A stretch of DNA of 64,000 nt, taken from Candidatus Saccharimonadota bacterium (GTDB lineage: Bacteria; Patescibacteriota; Saccharimonadia; Saccharimonadales; UBA4665). Below are positions 10,564 to 16,193 of the stretch, piece by piece (within the stretch, counting starts at the first letter, position 1; each line of letters starts with the position of its first letter). The notes below the pieces were generated by a model that saw nothing but the letters and a program-made list of their open reading frames with translations, was not told the origin of the DNA and made no database searches. The stretch lies in NCBI GenBank assembly GCA_028286345.1, contig JAQBRT010000001.1:630567-694566 (forward strand), in the 5' to 3' direction. A program made the position numbers and the translations under genes.

Positions 10564-11319
10564 ATGATTATCACCGGCATCACGGGCGCAATTGGCCATG
10601 GTAAAACCACATTAGCACAGGCATTAGTAACTGCCTCCGGGCAGGGTGAGAACTTTGAGTCGTCAGATATCATTCTGGAAGTTGCCAATGCGCTGCGGGC
10701 ACTGCCTATTGACCACCCAGCCCCAACTGACCTGGAAGCTATCAATGAGTGGCTGGCCTTTTTGCCACCAATACTCCACGATATAACCCATGTAAACGTG
10801 CCAGAGTCGGCTTTTGTACTCACTAAGCAAAAGCTGGCCAAAGACACGGCCCTCTACGAAAAACTGTTCGAATACCTGGCATTTATGGCCCACTGTCCTA
10901 ACTTTACGCGGGCAGCCATTACGGTAGAGAATAAACACCGGTACAGGGCGCTGCTACAGTGGCTTGGCGGTTACTGCGTTCTTAAAGTACACCCAACAAT
11001 TTGGTTTGACGAACTTGTTCGTCGTGTTCAGGCTACAAAAGGCCTAAATTTAACGACCATTGGTGGTGTGCGCTTCCCGAGTGATGCCGAATCTCTTCGC
11101 TCTGTAGACGGTGTTATTATTGCAGTCCAGCGGCCCTTGCACGGCTCGGCAGACAGCGCAGACATCACCGAACGGGAACGTTCACAGATCATCCCAGATA
11201 TTACAGTTATCAATGATGGAACCATCGAACAGTTACAGCGCCTAGCCAGCACCTTATATGCTGATTTGGTGTCAGCCACCCCACGCCCAACCTACATAGC
11301 CAGTAGTTTTAGCGTTTAA
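10564..11319 (+). CDS. P-loop nucleoside monophosphate kinase-like protein
   Basis: A 251-residue protein with Walker A GAIGHGKTT at residues 8-16 and, near residue 165, TIGGVRFPSDAESLRSVDGVIIAVQRP, which resembles the nucleotide-binding strand of phage-type deoxynucleoside monophosphate kinases and of dephospho-CoA kinase relatives. A role in dNTP supply would fit the dcd / dTMP kinase / ThyX genes 2 kb downstream, but the substrate is inferred only from the fold. An extended -10 (TGG TACACT) ends 6 nt before ATG, predicting a leaderless mRNA. Its end overlaps the next gene, on the other strand, by 11 nt. Confidence 0.7.
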   Translation: MIITGITGAIGHGKTTLAQALVTASGQGENFESSDIILEVANALRALPIDHPAPTDLEAINEWLAFLPPILHDITHVNVPESAFVLTKQKLAKDTALYEKLFEYLAFMAHCPNFTRAAITVENKHRYRALLQWLGGYCVLKVHPTIWFDELVRRVQATKGLNLTTIGGVRFPSDAESLRSVDGVIIAVQRPLHGSADSADITERERSQIIPDITVINDGTIEQLQRLASTLYADLVSATPRPTYIASSFSV

Positions 11320-12979
11320 CTTTACTAATCTGTAGCAAAGCATTAAGCGTACGGGTAAAGCCGCGGACTCCACCTTTATAAGCCACATAGCGCGGCCGCC
11401 ATTCAGGTTTATATTTGGCCTTAAAGCGGTGCAGGCCGCTAAAAGAGTAAAAGCGGTCGCCGTTAGCGTAAATAAAACTTAGCACCGTATCGGGTAAAGA
11501 TCGGGCTTCATCATCATCATCAAGCCCTACTAGCGGGCAAAGCCCTAAATTGAACCGTGTAAAGCCCTGGGCGCGTAAATAATCAATGGTATTAAGCAGC
11601 AAGAAGTCATTAATGTTACCGGTGCTATCTTCGGCGTAGCGTAACATGTCATAGGTTGCCTCTTCGGTATCAAAACCGGCCGGGATGAGGTTAACAAAAG
11701 CCTGGATAGTACTTGCCGCATCGCGCACCACCATGACCTGGCACTGGTCAATGTATGCACCACTGTAATAACCCATAATAAAACCCCGCTCGGTACGGCC
11801 ATCACGGTCAAGCCACTCATCAGAGATCTGACGCAGCCGGTCTTTAACGGCAGTGTGGTGCGGAGGGGTTAGGAGCTCAGTGCTAAAACCTTGTTTTTCA
11901 AACTTGTTACGGATATGGCGGAAATACTTATTGCGCCCTGTATCTGTAAAAGCCTCAAGGTTCACAACAGCTTCTTCGCCAATCTTCTGGAGCGTAAAGT
12001 CCTGGTTTTCCAGTAATTGGTGGCTGGTATCTTGAATATGAACCCAAGCCGGCAGCCAATCGTTACTGAAGCAAGTACGCTGGAACTCCCGCACCAGCTC
12101 GCCAAATTGCCTAGGGTTACCACTCGGGTCACCCAAGCAGACGGCCACACCGCGGTGAACACTATAGGCTAGCCCGGCTGTTGTGGTTCGATCAAAATAG
12201 TACTGCTTATCATGCGGCCACAACTTAAAAAAGTCCTCACTGCGGGCCGGATAGTGTTCTAAAAGCTGCTGCATCCGATTGCGTGGCCCAGATTGGTCAG
12301 AATGGCGTAGCCGGAGTGGTTCAAAGAAAGCCAGTATCACGTAGGCAGCAGCTGCAATACTTACTAAAGAAAGCGAATCAACAAAGATATGGGCACGCTT
12401 AGTATGTGGTGTGAGTGGTTCCCGGGTGGTAATACCCAATTGGTCAACAGTGTAATGAACAGCTTGGCCAAACGAAATCTCTTTGTGAAAATCGGAGCGG
12501 TCGAACAGGTTAAAACCAATAACCCCGTAGAGTAGGGCTACTACAATAATGACGGCCGAAAAACGGGCAGCATTGGCATAGCTCCGGGCTTCACTTTGAA
12601 CTGTAAAGTCCTTGCGGAAAAGGCCCAGTAACCCGATAAGCAGCAGCGGTACGATAACGCCGCGTACAATATCGATCAAGCGGACATGGTGGTCTTCGAG
12701 GCCATTCAGCAAGCCCATGCCGCTTAGGCCTAAGTAAAAGGTGTAGGCCAGTATGCTCACCACCCAGGCGCGGAACTTGTGCCGGCGGAGCAAAGTACTT
12801 AGGTAGATCAAGCTCACACCAAGAAGCAGTGGAACATCAATCGTTGCCAAGCTACCGCGTAAGGTTTTGCGGACAAGGATCTGGTCGAGTAGCGTAGTTA
12901 TGAGGATCAGTGCACCGTGTGAGGCCACCAGCAAGCTAATAAATCGAATTACGAAGCTACGACGAATATGAAATTGCAT
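11309..12979 (-). CDS. MprF-like membrane protein (DUF2156 phosphatidylglycerol lysyltransferase domain)
   Basis: A 556-residue protein with about six membrane segments in the first 230 residues and a cytoplasmic C-terminal DUF2156/GNAT-like domain (about 245-550) with motifs typical of MprF: AVCLGDPSG, EEAVVNLEAFTDTGRNKYFRHIRNK, ERGFIMGYYS, and FNLGLCPL...FSGLHRFKAKYKPEWRPRYVAY. MprF enzymes move an amino acid from tRNA to phosphatidylglycerol, which lowers membrane charge. The flippase half here is shorter than in full-length MprF. A TATAAT 8 nt before the ATG predicts a leaderless mRNA. Confidence 0.88.
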   Translation of the reverse strand: MQFHIRRSFVIRFISLLVASHGALILITTLLDQILVRKTLRGSLATIDVPLLLGVSLIYLSTLLRRHKFRAWVVSILAYTFYLGLSGMGLLNGLEDHHVRLIDIVRGVIVPLLLIGLLGLFRKDFTVQSEARSYANAARFSAVIIVVALLYGVIGFNLFDRSDFHKEISFGQAVHYTVDQLGITTREPLTPHTKRAHIFVDSLSLVSIAAAAYVILAFFEPLRLRHSDQSGPRNRMQQLLEHYPARSEDFFKLWPHDKQYYFDRTTTAGLAYSVHRGVAVCLGDPSGNPRQFGELVREFQRTCFSNDWLPAWVHIQDTSHQLLENQDFTLQKIGEEAVVNLEAFTDTGRNKYFRHIRNKFEKQGFSTELLTPPHHTAVKDRLRQISDEWLDRDGRTERGFIMGYYSGAYIDQCQVMVVRDAASTIQAFVNLIPAGFDTEEATYDMLRYAEDSTGNINDFLLLNTIDYLRAQGFTRFNLGLCPLVGLDDDDEARSLPDTVLSFIYANGDRFYSFSGLHRFKAKYKPEWRPRYVAYKGGVRGFTRTLNALLQISKVKR

Positions 12980-13126: not shown

Positions 13127-13840
13127 GTGTCAGTTTACAGTAATACCCAGATTCGCCAGGCTCTTGATGAAGGTCATATTGTCTGCCACCCCTTTAAACC
13201 TGAGCACGTTGCACACGCCAGCCTTGATGTTACCCTCGGCTATTACTATTACCGCATCGAAAAGCAAAAAGAACGCACCATCTATAATCCTTTCGATAAA
13301 GAAGACGTGGAGCGCTATTTTGATGGCCCCTACAAGGCATTGCCGCATGGTGAATGGTGTAAACTCAATGGCTTTAAGCCGCTTGCCAATATTCCCCTTG
13401 ACCATCCCGTCATATCTTTGAAGCCGGGCGAACGCATCCTGGCCCATACCCACGAGTTCTTTGGCATTAAGCCACCAGGCGCCTACGAAGTTAAATCACG
13501 CTCCAGCTGGGGCCGTAACGGCGTAGCTGTTTGTTTTGATGCTGGCTGGGTAGATCCCGGTTATATTAACCGCCTCACCCTCGAAATCTATAACCTCAAT
13601 GACCGCGAAACAGTATTGCTGCCGGTTGGTGAGCGTATTGCCCAGGCAATCTTTGTTGAAACCGGCGAAGTCGATGGCAACTATGGCGAAGGCCGAAGCA
13701 ACGGCTTTAGTGGCAAATACCAGATGGGAACCAATCTCGAGACTATTATCAAGACTTGGTCACCAGATATGATGCTGCCAAAAGCCTACTTAGACAGCCG
13801 TCTCATGCCACAAAAGATTGAGGGACTATCATATGACTAA
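13127..13840 (+). CDS. dcd: dCTP deaminase (possibly dUMP-forming)
   Basis: A 237-residue trimeric dUTPase-fold protein. The Dcd motifs are HASLDVTLG, the catalytic block VKSRSSWGRNGVAV, DAGWVDPGYINRLTLEIYN with the catalytic Glu, and a C-terminal GFSGKYQ. It makes dUTP from dCTP. The AGWVDPGY segment is closer to bifunctional dCTP deaminase/dUTPase enzymes that release dUMP than to the E. coli form, which would directly feed the ThyX partner; this is an inference. GTG start with GGAGGAG 10 nt upstream. The end overlaps the next gene by 8 nt. Confidence 0.92.
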   Translation: MSVYSNTQIRQALDEGHIVCHPFKPEHVAHASLDVTLGYYYYRIEKQKERTIYNPFDKEDVERYFDGPYKALPHGEWCKLNGFKPLANIPLDHPVISLKPGERILAHTHEFFGIKPPGAYEVKSRSSWGRNGVAVCFDAGWVDPGYINRLTLEIYNLNDRETVLLPVGERIAQAIFVETGEVDGNYGEGRSNGFSGKYQMGTNLETIIKTWSPDMMLPKAYLDSRLMPQKIEGLSYD

Positions 13841-16193
13841 TGGTAAATACATTGTCCTCGAAGGTGCTGAAGGTGTAGGTAAAACCTCGCAATTAACTGA
13901 GTTGGCCCGCCGTTTACGGGCTGCTGGCTTCCCGGTGCGTACATTGCGTGAACCTGATAGCCAAAGTGACCTTACCGCCCGGGCCATCCGCCAGCTAACC
14001 CAAGACCCGCATTACCCTATGAACACCCGCACAGAGGTGCTGCTTTACAATGCCGCCCGCTCCCAGAGCCTTGAAGTTATTAAGCAAAGCGTAGAACAGG
14101 GCATTATTTGCCTGGTTGACCGCAACTACTTAACAACACTGGCCATCCAGTACTATGGCCGCGGTGACGTGCCAGACTACGGCACTATTAACACCATTAT
14201 CAATTTTGCTGTTGGTGGTATTGAGCCAGACCTAACAGTGGTCCTTGACGCACCAGCTGCAACCCTAAAAGAGCGGGCCCAAGGCCGTGGCCAAGGCGAA
14301 CGTTTTGATAATCTTGACCAGGCATTTTTAGAGCGAGTACGGGCCGGCTACCTCTGGGAAGCTAAGCAGCGCAACTTGCCCGTTGTATTCGCAACCGACA
14401 GTTTTGAGCAAGTCGCCAGCAATATCTGGGATTTAGTCTCTAAAACCTTGGCTATTCGCGAGCCCAGCAAAGCTGCAGCAACTGCAGAGCCGGTATCTAT
14501 TAAAGAAATTATTGAGCAAAAAGAACTGCCAGCGCCTCATGAACCACCCCTACAAACAGTGGTAGCAGAAGAAGCTGCCGCCGAACCCGCCAACGATGAA
14601 CCTTTTGTTACTAAAGATGATAACGGCCACTTCCATGTCACTAAAACCGGCAAAACCTACCTAGCTGAGTCAGTAACCAGTGTTGACGGCAATGTCTATG
14701 CTTTTACCGACAAACTTAGCCCGATCACAATCGCAGCAGCTATGGCCCGCCTCAGCCGCCGTGGTGACGATATGCGCATTACTATCCTTGATGAGTTTGC
14801 CGGCAAGGTTGGCAAGGACTCGCAACTACTGCAAAGGGTTATAACCGCTTATGGTGACGACTCCGTCCAGCAATTAGGCGGGTTGCACTTTGTTATAGAA
14901 AACGCCTCTAATTTACTGACCAAAAAGCTCGAATGGGGCCGCTTAGCGGCTTATCTTGAGCAGTCTACCCGCTACATTTACTTTGATCAGAAAGATGCTA
15001 ACGGCCATTACCGCTATTATGTCCCACCACAGATAAAGGGTAGCGTCCGTAAGCAGTACATTGAAGCCATGAATACCCTATTTGAGCTGTATTCAGTAAT
15101 GGTCCGCCAACTGACTGACCACGTCCGTGCCGGCTCCAGCGTACCCAAAGCTGAGCAGGACATTGCTTGGCAAGGTGCTACCCGCGCTCAGGCCTGCGAT
15201 GCCGTCCGCGCCGTTCTCCCTGTTGCCACCAAGTCCACTGTTGGCGTTTTTGCCTCTGGCCAAGCCCTTGAGAGCCTTATAATGCACCTCCTGAGTGACG
15301 AACTGCCAGAAGCGGTCACTACCGGCCACGACCTGCTGGAACAAGGCCGTAAGATTGTCCCAATGTTCCTAGAGCGCGCCGATAAGCCAGAACGGGGCGG
15401 GGCAGCCATAGCCTACCGCGCCAACACCCATAAAACCGTCCAGGGACTTGCCAAAGAGTACCTGCCAGATAATTATGCGGCTGACGACACCAAGCCAGTT
15501 ACCCTGGTAGACTACTGGCCAAAGAACGAACTATTACTAGTTCCCGATATGCTCTACGAGCACAGCAACCTGCCCCTAGAGAAGCTCCAAGGCGAGGTCA
15601 GCGAATGGGACTTTAAAAAGAAGTCAGAAGTCTTTAAGAGCTACATGGGTGAACGCCTCAACCGCCGCCACCGCCCAGGCCGGGCCCTAGAAAAAGCCCA
15701 CTACAGCTGGGACCTAGTCTGTGACTACGGTATTTTCCGTGACCTGCAGCGCCACCGCATGGTCGACGACCTCAACTGGCAACTCCTAACACCCCGCTAC
15801 GGCTACGAAGTACCGGCCCTAGTTGAAGAAGCCGGCCTGGTTGACCAGTTTGAAGCTTGCTTTGACATCAGCCTAAAGCTCTACAGCTTGCTGCAGCAAA
15901 ACGGCTACGCCCTAGAAGCGCAGTACGCCACACTGCTTGGCCACAAGATGCGATGGAAGATTACCTACAACGCCCGTGAGGCTTTCCATTTCCATGAACT
16001 GCGCACAGCGCCACAGGGCCACCCTGGTTACCGTAAACTCGTCCAGCAAATGCATGAAAAACTTGCCGAGGTTCACCCACAGATGGCTGATGCCATGAAG
16101 TTTGTTAACCAAGGCGAAGACGACGAACTAACACGCTTGGCAGCAGAACGTTACACCCAGTTCAAGCTCAATAGCTTTGACAAAAAAGCCTAA
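13833..16193 (+). CDS. dTMP kinase fused to two tandem ThyX-like domains
   Basis: A 786-residue fusion. Residues 1-210 are a thymidylate kinase: Walker A GAEGVGKTS (11-19), the LVDRNYLTT motif and a lid RAQGRGQGERFD. A linker rich in Glu, Ala and Pro (about 211-260) leads to about 520 residues with two FAD-dependent thymidylate synthase (ThyX)-like halves. The first half keeps an S-x-RY motif (LEQSTRYIYF) but not the RHR motif; the second keeps RHR (LQRHRM) and NAREAFHFHELR...QGHPGYR. It would turn dUMP into dTMP and then dTDP. ATG 13833 is chosen because AGGGA lies 7 nt upstream. Known ThyX proteins are about 220-250 residues, so this is twice the usual size plus a kinase. Confidence 0.9.
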   Translation: MTNGKYIVLEGAEGVGKTSQLTELARRLRAAGFPVRTLREPDSQSDLTARAIRQLTQDPHYPMNTRTEVLLYNAARSQSLEVIKQSVEQGIICLVDRNYLTTLAIQYYGRGDVPDYGTINTIINFAVGGIEPDLTVVLDAPAATLKERAQGRGQGERFDNLDQAFLERVRAGYLWEAKQRNLPVVFATDSFEQVASNIWDLVSKTLAIREPSKAAATAEPVSIKEIIEQKELPAPHEPPLQTVVAEEAAAEPANDEPFVTKDDNGHFHVTKTGKTYLAESVTSVDGNVYAFTDKLSPITIAAAMARLSRRGDDMRITILDEFAGKVGKDSQLLQRVITAYGDDSVQQLGGLHFVIENASNLLTKKLEWGRLAAYLEQSTRYIYFDQKDANGHYRYYVPPQIKGSVRKQYIEAMNTLFELYSVMVRQLTDHVRAGSSVPKAEQDIAWQGATRAQACDAVRAVLPVATKSTVGVFASGQALESLIMHLLSDELPEAVTTGHDLLEQGRKIVPMFLERADKPERGGAAIAYRANTHKTVQGLAKEYLPDNYAADDTKPVTLVDYWPKNELLLVPDMLYEHSNLPLEKLQGEVSEWDFKKKSEVFKSYMGERLNRRHRPGRALEKAHYSWDLVCDYGIFRDLQRHRMVDDLNWQLLTPRYGYEVPALVEEAGLVDQFEACFDISLKLYSLLQQNGYALEAQYATLLGHKMRWKITYNAREAFHFHELRTAPQGHPGYRKLVQQMHEKLAEVHPQMADAMKFVNQGEDDELTRLAAERYTQFKLNSFDKKA

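Follow-up and report, generated by a model that had tools for sequence, protein, structure and literature searches.

Locus and Genomic Context

The window analysed here is the whole stretch of 64,000 nucleotides, taken from a genome of Candidatus Saccharimonadota. It contains, on the forward strand, a gene for a dCTP deaminase-like protein (dcd) and, overlapping its end by 8 nt (13833-13840), a single open reading frame that encodes an N-terminal thymidylate kinase joined by a disordered linker to two halves of the ThyX family (Table 1). The frame runs from its ATG to a TAA at 16191-16193, and the translation contains no internal stop. Pfam detects Thymidylate_kin at residues 9-198 of the fusion protein (95 bits, cut-off 27), followed by two Thy1 segments which sum to 120 bits (cut-off 24.8). 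The upstream protein exceeds the Pfam DCD cut-off of 27 bits and falls just below that of TIGR02274 (90.0 vs. 92.8 bits). The initial annotation had described a 786-residue frame composed of tmk, a linker, and two ThyX domains, overlapping dcd by 8 nt; both the coordinates and the domain identities are borne out, and a frameshift between the kinase and the ThyX part was looked for and not found, all 786 aa being read through in one frame.

Table 1. Features of the dcd and tmk-thyX-thyX genes. Residues are those of the encoded proteins; equivalences are given in Thermotoga maritima ThyX numbering.
Feature	Position	Strand	Evidence
dcd, dCTP deaminase-like protein, 237 aa, GTG start	13127..13840	+	Pfam DCD PF22769, 112 bits
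tmk-thyX-thyX fusion gene, 786 aa	13833..16193	+	Single ORF, Pfam domains
Type A thymidylate kinase domain, residues 1-205	13833..14447	+	TIGR00041 106 bits, cut-off 83.25; Foldseek TM 0.82-0.87
P-loop GAEGVGKT, residues 11-18	13863..13886	+	Motif reading
DR motif, D96-R97	14118..14123	+	Retained in aligned type A fusions
Flexible Glu/Ala/Pro-rich linker, residues 206-256	14448..14600	+	pLDDT <50 over most of 208-253
ThyX N-half, residues 257-539	14601..15449	+	Thy1 61.3 bits; dUMP-side residues retained, RHR lost
E376-Q-S378-T-R380 (E86/S88/R90)	14958..14972	+	Fused N-halves: E 76/76, S 76/76, R 75/76
R459 (R147), N-half only (Q697 in C-half)	15207..15209	+	R in 75/76 fused N-halves; Q in 74/75 fused C-halves
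ThyX C-half, residues 540-786	15450..16190	+	Thy1 59.7 bits; RHR and flavin-side residues retained
R640-H641-R642 (R78-H79-R80)	15750..15758	+	74/75 fused C-halves at every position
N713-A-R715 (N163/R165)	15969..15977	+	Fused C-halves: N 75/75, R 74/75
R724 (R174)	16002..16004	+	R in 73/75 fused C-halves

The full-length frame is found, 54-82% identical, in dozens of independent assemblies, which indicates that the fusion is not a matter of chance and leaves practically no probability for an assembly or annotation artefact that joined two adjacent genes, an idea refuted by this recurrence. The fusion is found in soil and groundwater Saccharibacteria: around 116 of the 295 sampled genomes of the order, counted by eye, contain a fusion frame of ~735-860 aa, and 38 of 40 relatives match it. 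The dcd gene lies immediately upstream in 81 of the 88 loci with enough sequence, frequently with a short overlap. The large family f18 of the order is mostly devoid of the fusion, and several of its genomes carry unfused dcd and type B kinase genes (described below) side by side.

Other genes accompany this pair in the window. A phage-type deoxynucleotide monophosphate kinase (DNMK) is encoded at 10564-11319 (+; PF21448, 35.5 bits, cut-off 27.1), 2.5 kb upstream of the fusion. Between DNMK and dcd, on the opposite strand (11309-12979), lies the gene of a 556-aa protein resembling the C-terminal region of MprF that transfers lysyl groups (LPG_synthase_C, 214 bits). Promoters and terminators predicted at the operon were in no excess over shuffled sequence. 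A mutual exclusion between DNMK and a standalone Tmk-like kinase (kC) upstream of dcd was considered and discarded: kC and DNMK occur in 5 and 11 of 47 loci, respectively, and never together, but chance alone would give only ~1.2 joint occurrences.

The host genome is small (0.9 Mb, 98% complete); among named genomes, MAGs of Candidatus Saccharibacteria come closest to it. The fusion is the only PF02223 protein and the only PF02511 protein found in it by profile searches, which in this 98% complete genome detected no ThyA. SHMT, dUTPase, DHFR, and FolD are encoded within 19 kb of one another (G000:C2:290527-308977), far from the fusion, and NDK is also encoded away from it. The presence of DHFR is somewhat unusual in an organism with only ThyX. 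The two-gene dTTP pathway initially proposed is not supported, since a separate dUTPase, NDK, and folate enzymes are encoded elsewhere; the fusion and dcd thus form the core of dTTP synthesis, of which other steps lie outside this locus.

Distribution of Active-Site Residues in the ThyX Doublet

Each half of the C-terminal part separately exceeds the Thy1 cut-off in the genome profile search (Table 1), and the protein misses the cut-off of TIGR02170, the thyX equivalog (52.5 vs. 87.9 bits). An AlphaFold2 model of the whole protein was built from an alignment of 33 relatives (mean pLDDT 79.5). The doublet is modelled with modest confidence (pLDDT 72), and its best-ranked Foldseek matches are ThyX-family structures (TM for the target of 0.58-0.71), one of them the FAD- and dUMP-bound T. 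maritima ThyX (1o26). A PDB sequence search with profiles of the two halves gave no match; the halves were linked to the solved ThyX proteins via single-domain ThyX sequences. Profile and predicted fold are therefore in agreement with the ThyX-like domains of the initial annotation, and the kinase part likewise matches Tmk profiles. The canonical one-domain motif of ThyX is absent, the N-half reading W-G-R followed by E-x-S-x-R and the C-half RHR followed by L-x-T-x-R. Because of this division the doublet, a member of the PF02511 ThyX superfamily as judged by profile and modelled fold, is classified as a split-site variant and not as canonical ThyX.

The residue map, in T. maritima numbering, comes from an alignment in which 15 single-chain ThyX sequences, among others those of T. 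maritima and Mycobacterium tuberculosis, were combined with 101 N-halves and 100 C-halves. In 95 of the 100 complete doublets, fused and unfused counted together, the losses are complementary: the N-half contains S-x-R and R147 without RHR, and the C-half contains RHR, N163, R165, and R174 without R147 (in 15 of these 95 the C-half reads S-x-R too). The N-halves retain E86, S88, R90, and R147; their R78-H79 is mostly replaced by W-G, and N163 and R165 are mostly missing. The C-halves retain R78-H79-R80, N163, R165, and R174 and have a Q at the position of R147. In the window protein, the first half contains S378-T-R380-Y, with W368-G369-R370 at the RHR position, and the second half contains R640-H641-R642, NAR (713-715), LR (723-724), and QGH (728-730). 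That the first half keeps S-x-RY without RHR, and the second keeps RHR, had already been noticed; the map confirms it, and the complementary doublets support the accompanying guess that the tandem halves share out the active-site residues. H53 of T. maritima is missing from both window halves (D342 and P615), and the position of H178 is occupied by D489 and Q728.

Direct binding of dUMP by R78, R80, S88, and R90 has been reported for ThyX, and the PBCV-1 enzyme has Gln75 and Arg182 of one subunit opposite Ser88 and Gln89 of a second one (PMC3498832). Since the solved ThyX site is lined by residues of different monomers, the residue sets that meet at the subunit border are those divided between the halves here, and the natural reading of the complementary halves would be one composite active site per chain. 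For E86, R147, N163, R165, and R174, we assume the roles that they have in the T. maritima ThyX structures.

The doublet might also have ceased to be a dTMP synthase and now methylate uridylate in some other role, or serve the kinase as a scaffold. The loss of H53 and H178 from both halves and the low TIGR02170 score would fit this idea, as would the ThyX remnants kept in frame on the kinase in three genomes (G004, G025, and G457). It is nonetheless very unlikely, given that searches of the 98% complete genome revealed no other candidate thymidylate synthase, that the key residues of the doublet are near-invariant over 76 fusions, and that the decayed copy of G457 coincides with an intact unfused doublet. 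The latter lies two genes upstream of the decayed fusion (L136:6431-8377), in which the kinase motifs are intact but RHR and the greater part of the ThyX N-half are gone; such a pattern is expected of a C-terminal thymidylate synthase joined to a kinase that is required in its own right. In G004 (L174:2509-4341) the ThyX part is decayed likewise, next to an intact kinase and in an open frame, and no further ThyX matching the query was found in this genome. In G025 (L175:108-1910) the kinase and ThyX parts are both without their motifs, and little of the ThyX N-half is left, the frame again being open. The 796-aa copy of G007 (L134:3954-6341, minus strand) lacks the DR of the kinase and the RHR of ThyX, also in an open frame; in this genome an unfused doublet (L135) is intact, and a further Tmk is encoded by a gene of its own. 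Taken together, the decayed copies follow the pattern expected of two separable activities.

Unfused doublets of the same split pattern are widespread across Patescibacteria, including Giovannonibacteria (L074 and L076). As for viruses, gp50 of phage Tunturi_5 (L172:2438-3994) is a 518-aa protein that aligns with both ThyX halves, and a viral contig (L171:3884-5572) encodes a 563-aa doublet which, read by eye, contains WGR...EQSTRY in the N-half and RHR in the C-half. In view of this presence in Patescibacteria and phages, the split probably predates the kinase fusion. Tunturi_5 is a jumbo phage, and its double-length ThyX gene adjoins a dCMP deaminase gene. The ThyX of Chlamydia trachomatis is probably of double length as well.

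Kinase Domain, Linker, and Kinase Types

The N-terminal domain is a member of the thymidylate kinase family according to its profile, motifs, and modelled fold, and the corresponding activity is predicted. In the window protein the P-loop, the DR motif, and the arginines of the lid region (residues 144-176) are intact, and the predicted domain superposes on solved Tmk structures (Table 1). The linker is read as disordered because of its low pLDDT. Its length between domain hits ranges from 23 to 81 aa in type A fusions and from 19 to 41 aa in type B fusions, and its sequence is unconserved.

Two types of kinase are found on the same doublet: type A, that of the window (TIGR00041), and type B, which is M. 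tuberculosis-like (NF005923). The fused kinases of the two types are only ~22% identical, while the ThyX parts that carry them are 65-75% identical. In the kinase tree, with moderate supports (78-89), the fused type A kinases group with their 37% relatives, and the fused type B kinases likewise fall together, adjacent to free-standing kinases of type B that are encoded next to dcd or next to unfused ThyX doublets. The ThyX tree intermixes the kinase types, but a single clean division into types A and B is compatible with the data (AU p 0.68), and a history of two independent fusions or of one exchange would be enough. Repeated swapping of kinases was discarded: the free ThyX tree needs 10-18 changes, but the tree constrained to keep type A together scored even better. 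Judging from the sequences, the pairing of synthase and kinase has been made with two kinases, through two fusions or one exchange. Its occurrence with two kinases so distant suggests that physical coupling of both steps is favoured in these tiny bacteria.

It might be argued that the fused domain is a pseudo-kinase, or acts on another substrate, with a standalone Tmk or DNMK phosphorylating dTMP in its place. Separate standalone Tmk genes are indeed present in ~13 of ~32 fusion-bearing genomes, the window contains the DNMK gene, and NR replaces DR in most type B fusions (e.g., L046, L049, and L057). We consider this quite unlikely for several reasons: the catalytic motifs of the window kinase are intact and its TIGR00041 score is above the cut-off, the host genome yielded no second PF02223 protein, and NR is also read in some free-standing type B kinases (L076, L102, and L104). 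In the other ~19 of the ~32 genomes the fused kinase is the sole Tmk over the cut-off. Given the second, standalone Tmk of several relatives and the DNMK of the window, dTMP may have other kinases besides the fused one.

Proposed Reaction Path and Relation to Known Systems

The reading that best accounts for these observations, to which we assign a probability of about 0.8 on the basis of sequence comparison and modelling, is a bifunctional enzyme composed of a split-site ThyX and a flexibly tethered Tmk. The protein would catalyse two consecutive steps, from dUMP to dTMP and from dTMP to dTDP. In the C-terminal 530 residues, the N-half would provide the dUMP-side residues and the C-half the RHR and flavin-side residues, so that each chain may form one working ThyX site, as against one per subunit in the classical homotetramer, and two chains may mimic that tetramer. 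The resulting dTMP would pass to the tethered kinase. Dcd, from the overlapping upstream gene, would help to supply dUTP and dUMP, and the dUTPase and NDK encoded elsewhere would complete the path to dTTP.

With regard to the benefit of the tether, substrate channelling has to be weighed, that is, a fusion that exists so that dTMP made at the ThyX site reaches the active site of the kinase directly, without first diffusing into the medium. The consecutive reactions within one chain, conserved across the order, and the making of the fusion with two kinase subfamilies speak for it. The linker, predicted to be disordered, variable in length (19-81 aa), and unconserved, speaks against it, as do the kinases, whose ~22% identity on ThyX parts that are ~70% identical leaves no co-adapted interface visible. 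Channelling is therefore unlikely; an exchangeable kinase on a variable, disordered linker favours flexible tethering and fixed stoichiometry over a dedicated channel. In the bifunctional enzyme preferred here, the flexible leash would set 1:1 amounts and proximity, probably with no tunnel. A bolder version is a dedicated dUMP-to-dTDP machine, in which selection for coupling as such in reduced genomes made the covalent pairing arise at least twice and dTMP preferentially stays inside the complex on its way to the kinase; it is tentative and, on balance, doubtful.

The literature on ThyX in Saccharibacteria and Patescibacteria, on Tmk fusions, and on tandem duplication was searched in a collection with few subscription papers, where neither the fusion nor the split site turned out to be described; this coverage makes the silence weak evidence of novelty. 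With this weight, a Tmk joined to a split ThyX would be a new domain architecture, and the occurrence of the same doublet with either of two distant kinases would also be new. The system offers a natural division of the active site of a multi-subunit flavoenzyme between two fused halves, kept across a bacterial order, in which the contribution of each ThyX subunit becomes testable with single-site mutants. It also offers a natural coupling of synthase and kinase in dTTP synthesis, built with two kinase families, some copies having a decayed ThyX and intact kinase motifs. Moreover, tmk has been remarked to be poorly represented in the reduced genomes of Parcubacteria (PMC4508563), and the fusion may partly explain such apparent scarcity in reduced Patescibacteria genomes.

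The doublet resembles the classical ThyX (PF02511; T. maritima TM0449 and M. tuberculosis ThyX) in its fold and, over both halves combined, in RHR, S-x-R(Y), and the dUMP- and flavin-side residues; it differs in that these residues are divided between two fused halves, whereas the classical enzyme is a homotetramer of one ~230-aa chain. It shares the two-half layout with the unfused tandem ThyX of Patescibacteria and phages, the complementary loss having been counted in doublets from bacteria and, for L171, recognised by eye; unlike the fusion, those proteins contain no kinase domain, and a gene of its own nearby often encodes a type B kinase. The N-terminal kinase part has the motifs and the fold of bacterial Tmk, of the TIGR00041 kind in type A and of the M. 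tuberculosis kind (NF005923/PRK07933) in type B. Bacterial thymidylate kinases are normally free-standing homodimers of ~200 aa. Protozoa have a bifunctional DHFR-thymidylate synthase in which, as here, two enzymes of the thymidylate cycle are fused in one chain; its synthase is the unrelated ThyA, and its partner, DHFR, regenerates the cofactor and does not consume dTMP. Another parallel is found in Giovannonibacteria, where a dCMP deaminase is fused to a type A-like thymidylate kinase (L074:5632-6969, minus strand) in a gene adjoining an unfused ThyX doublet: here too Tmk is joined to an enzyme of the same path and in the same neighbourhood, the difference being that the partner is a deaminase.
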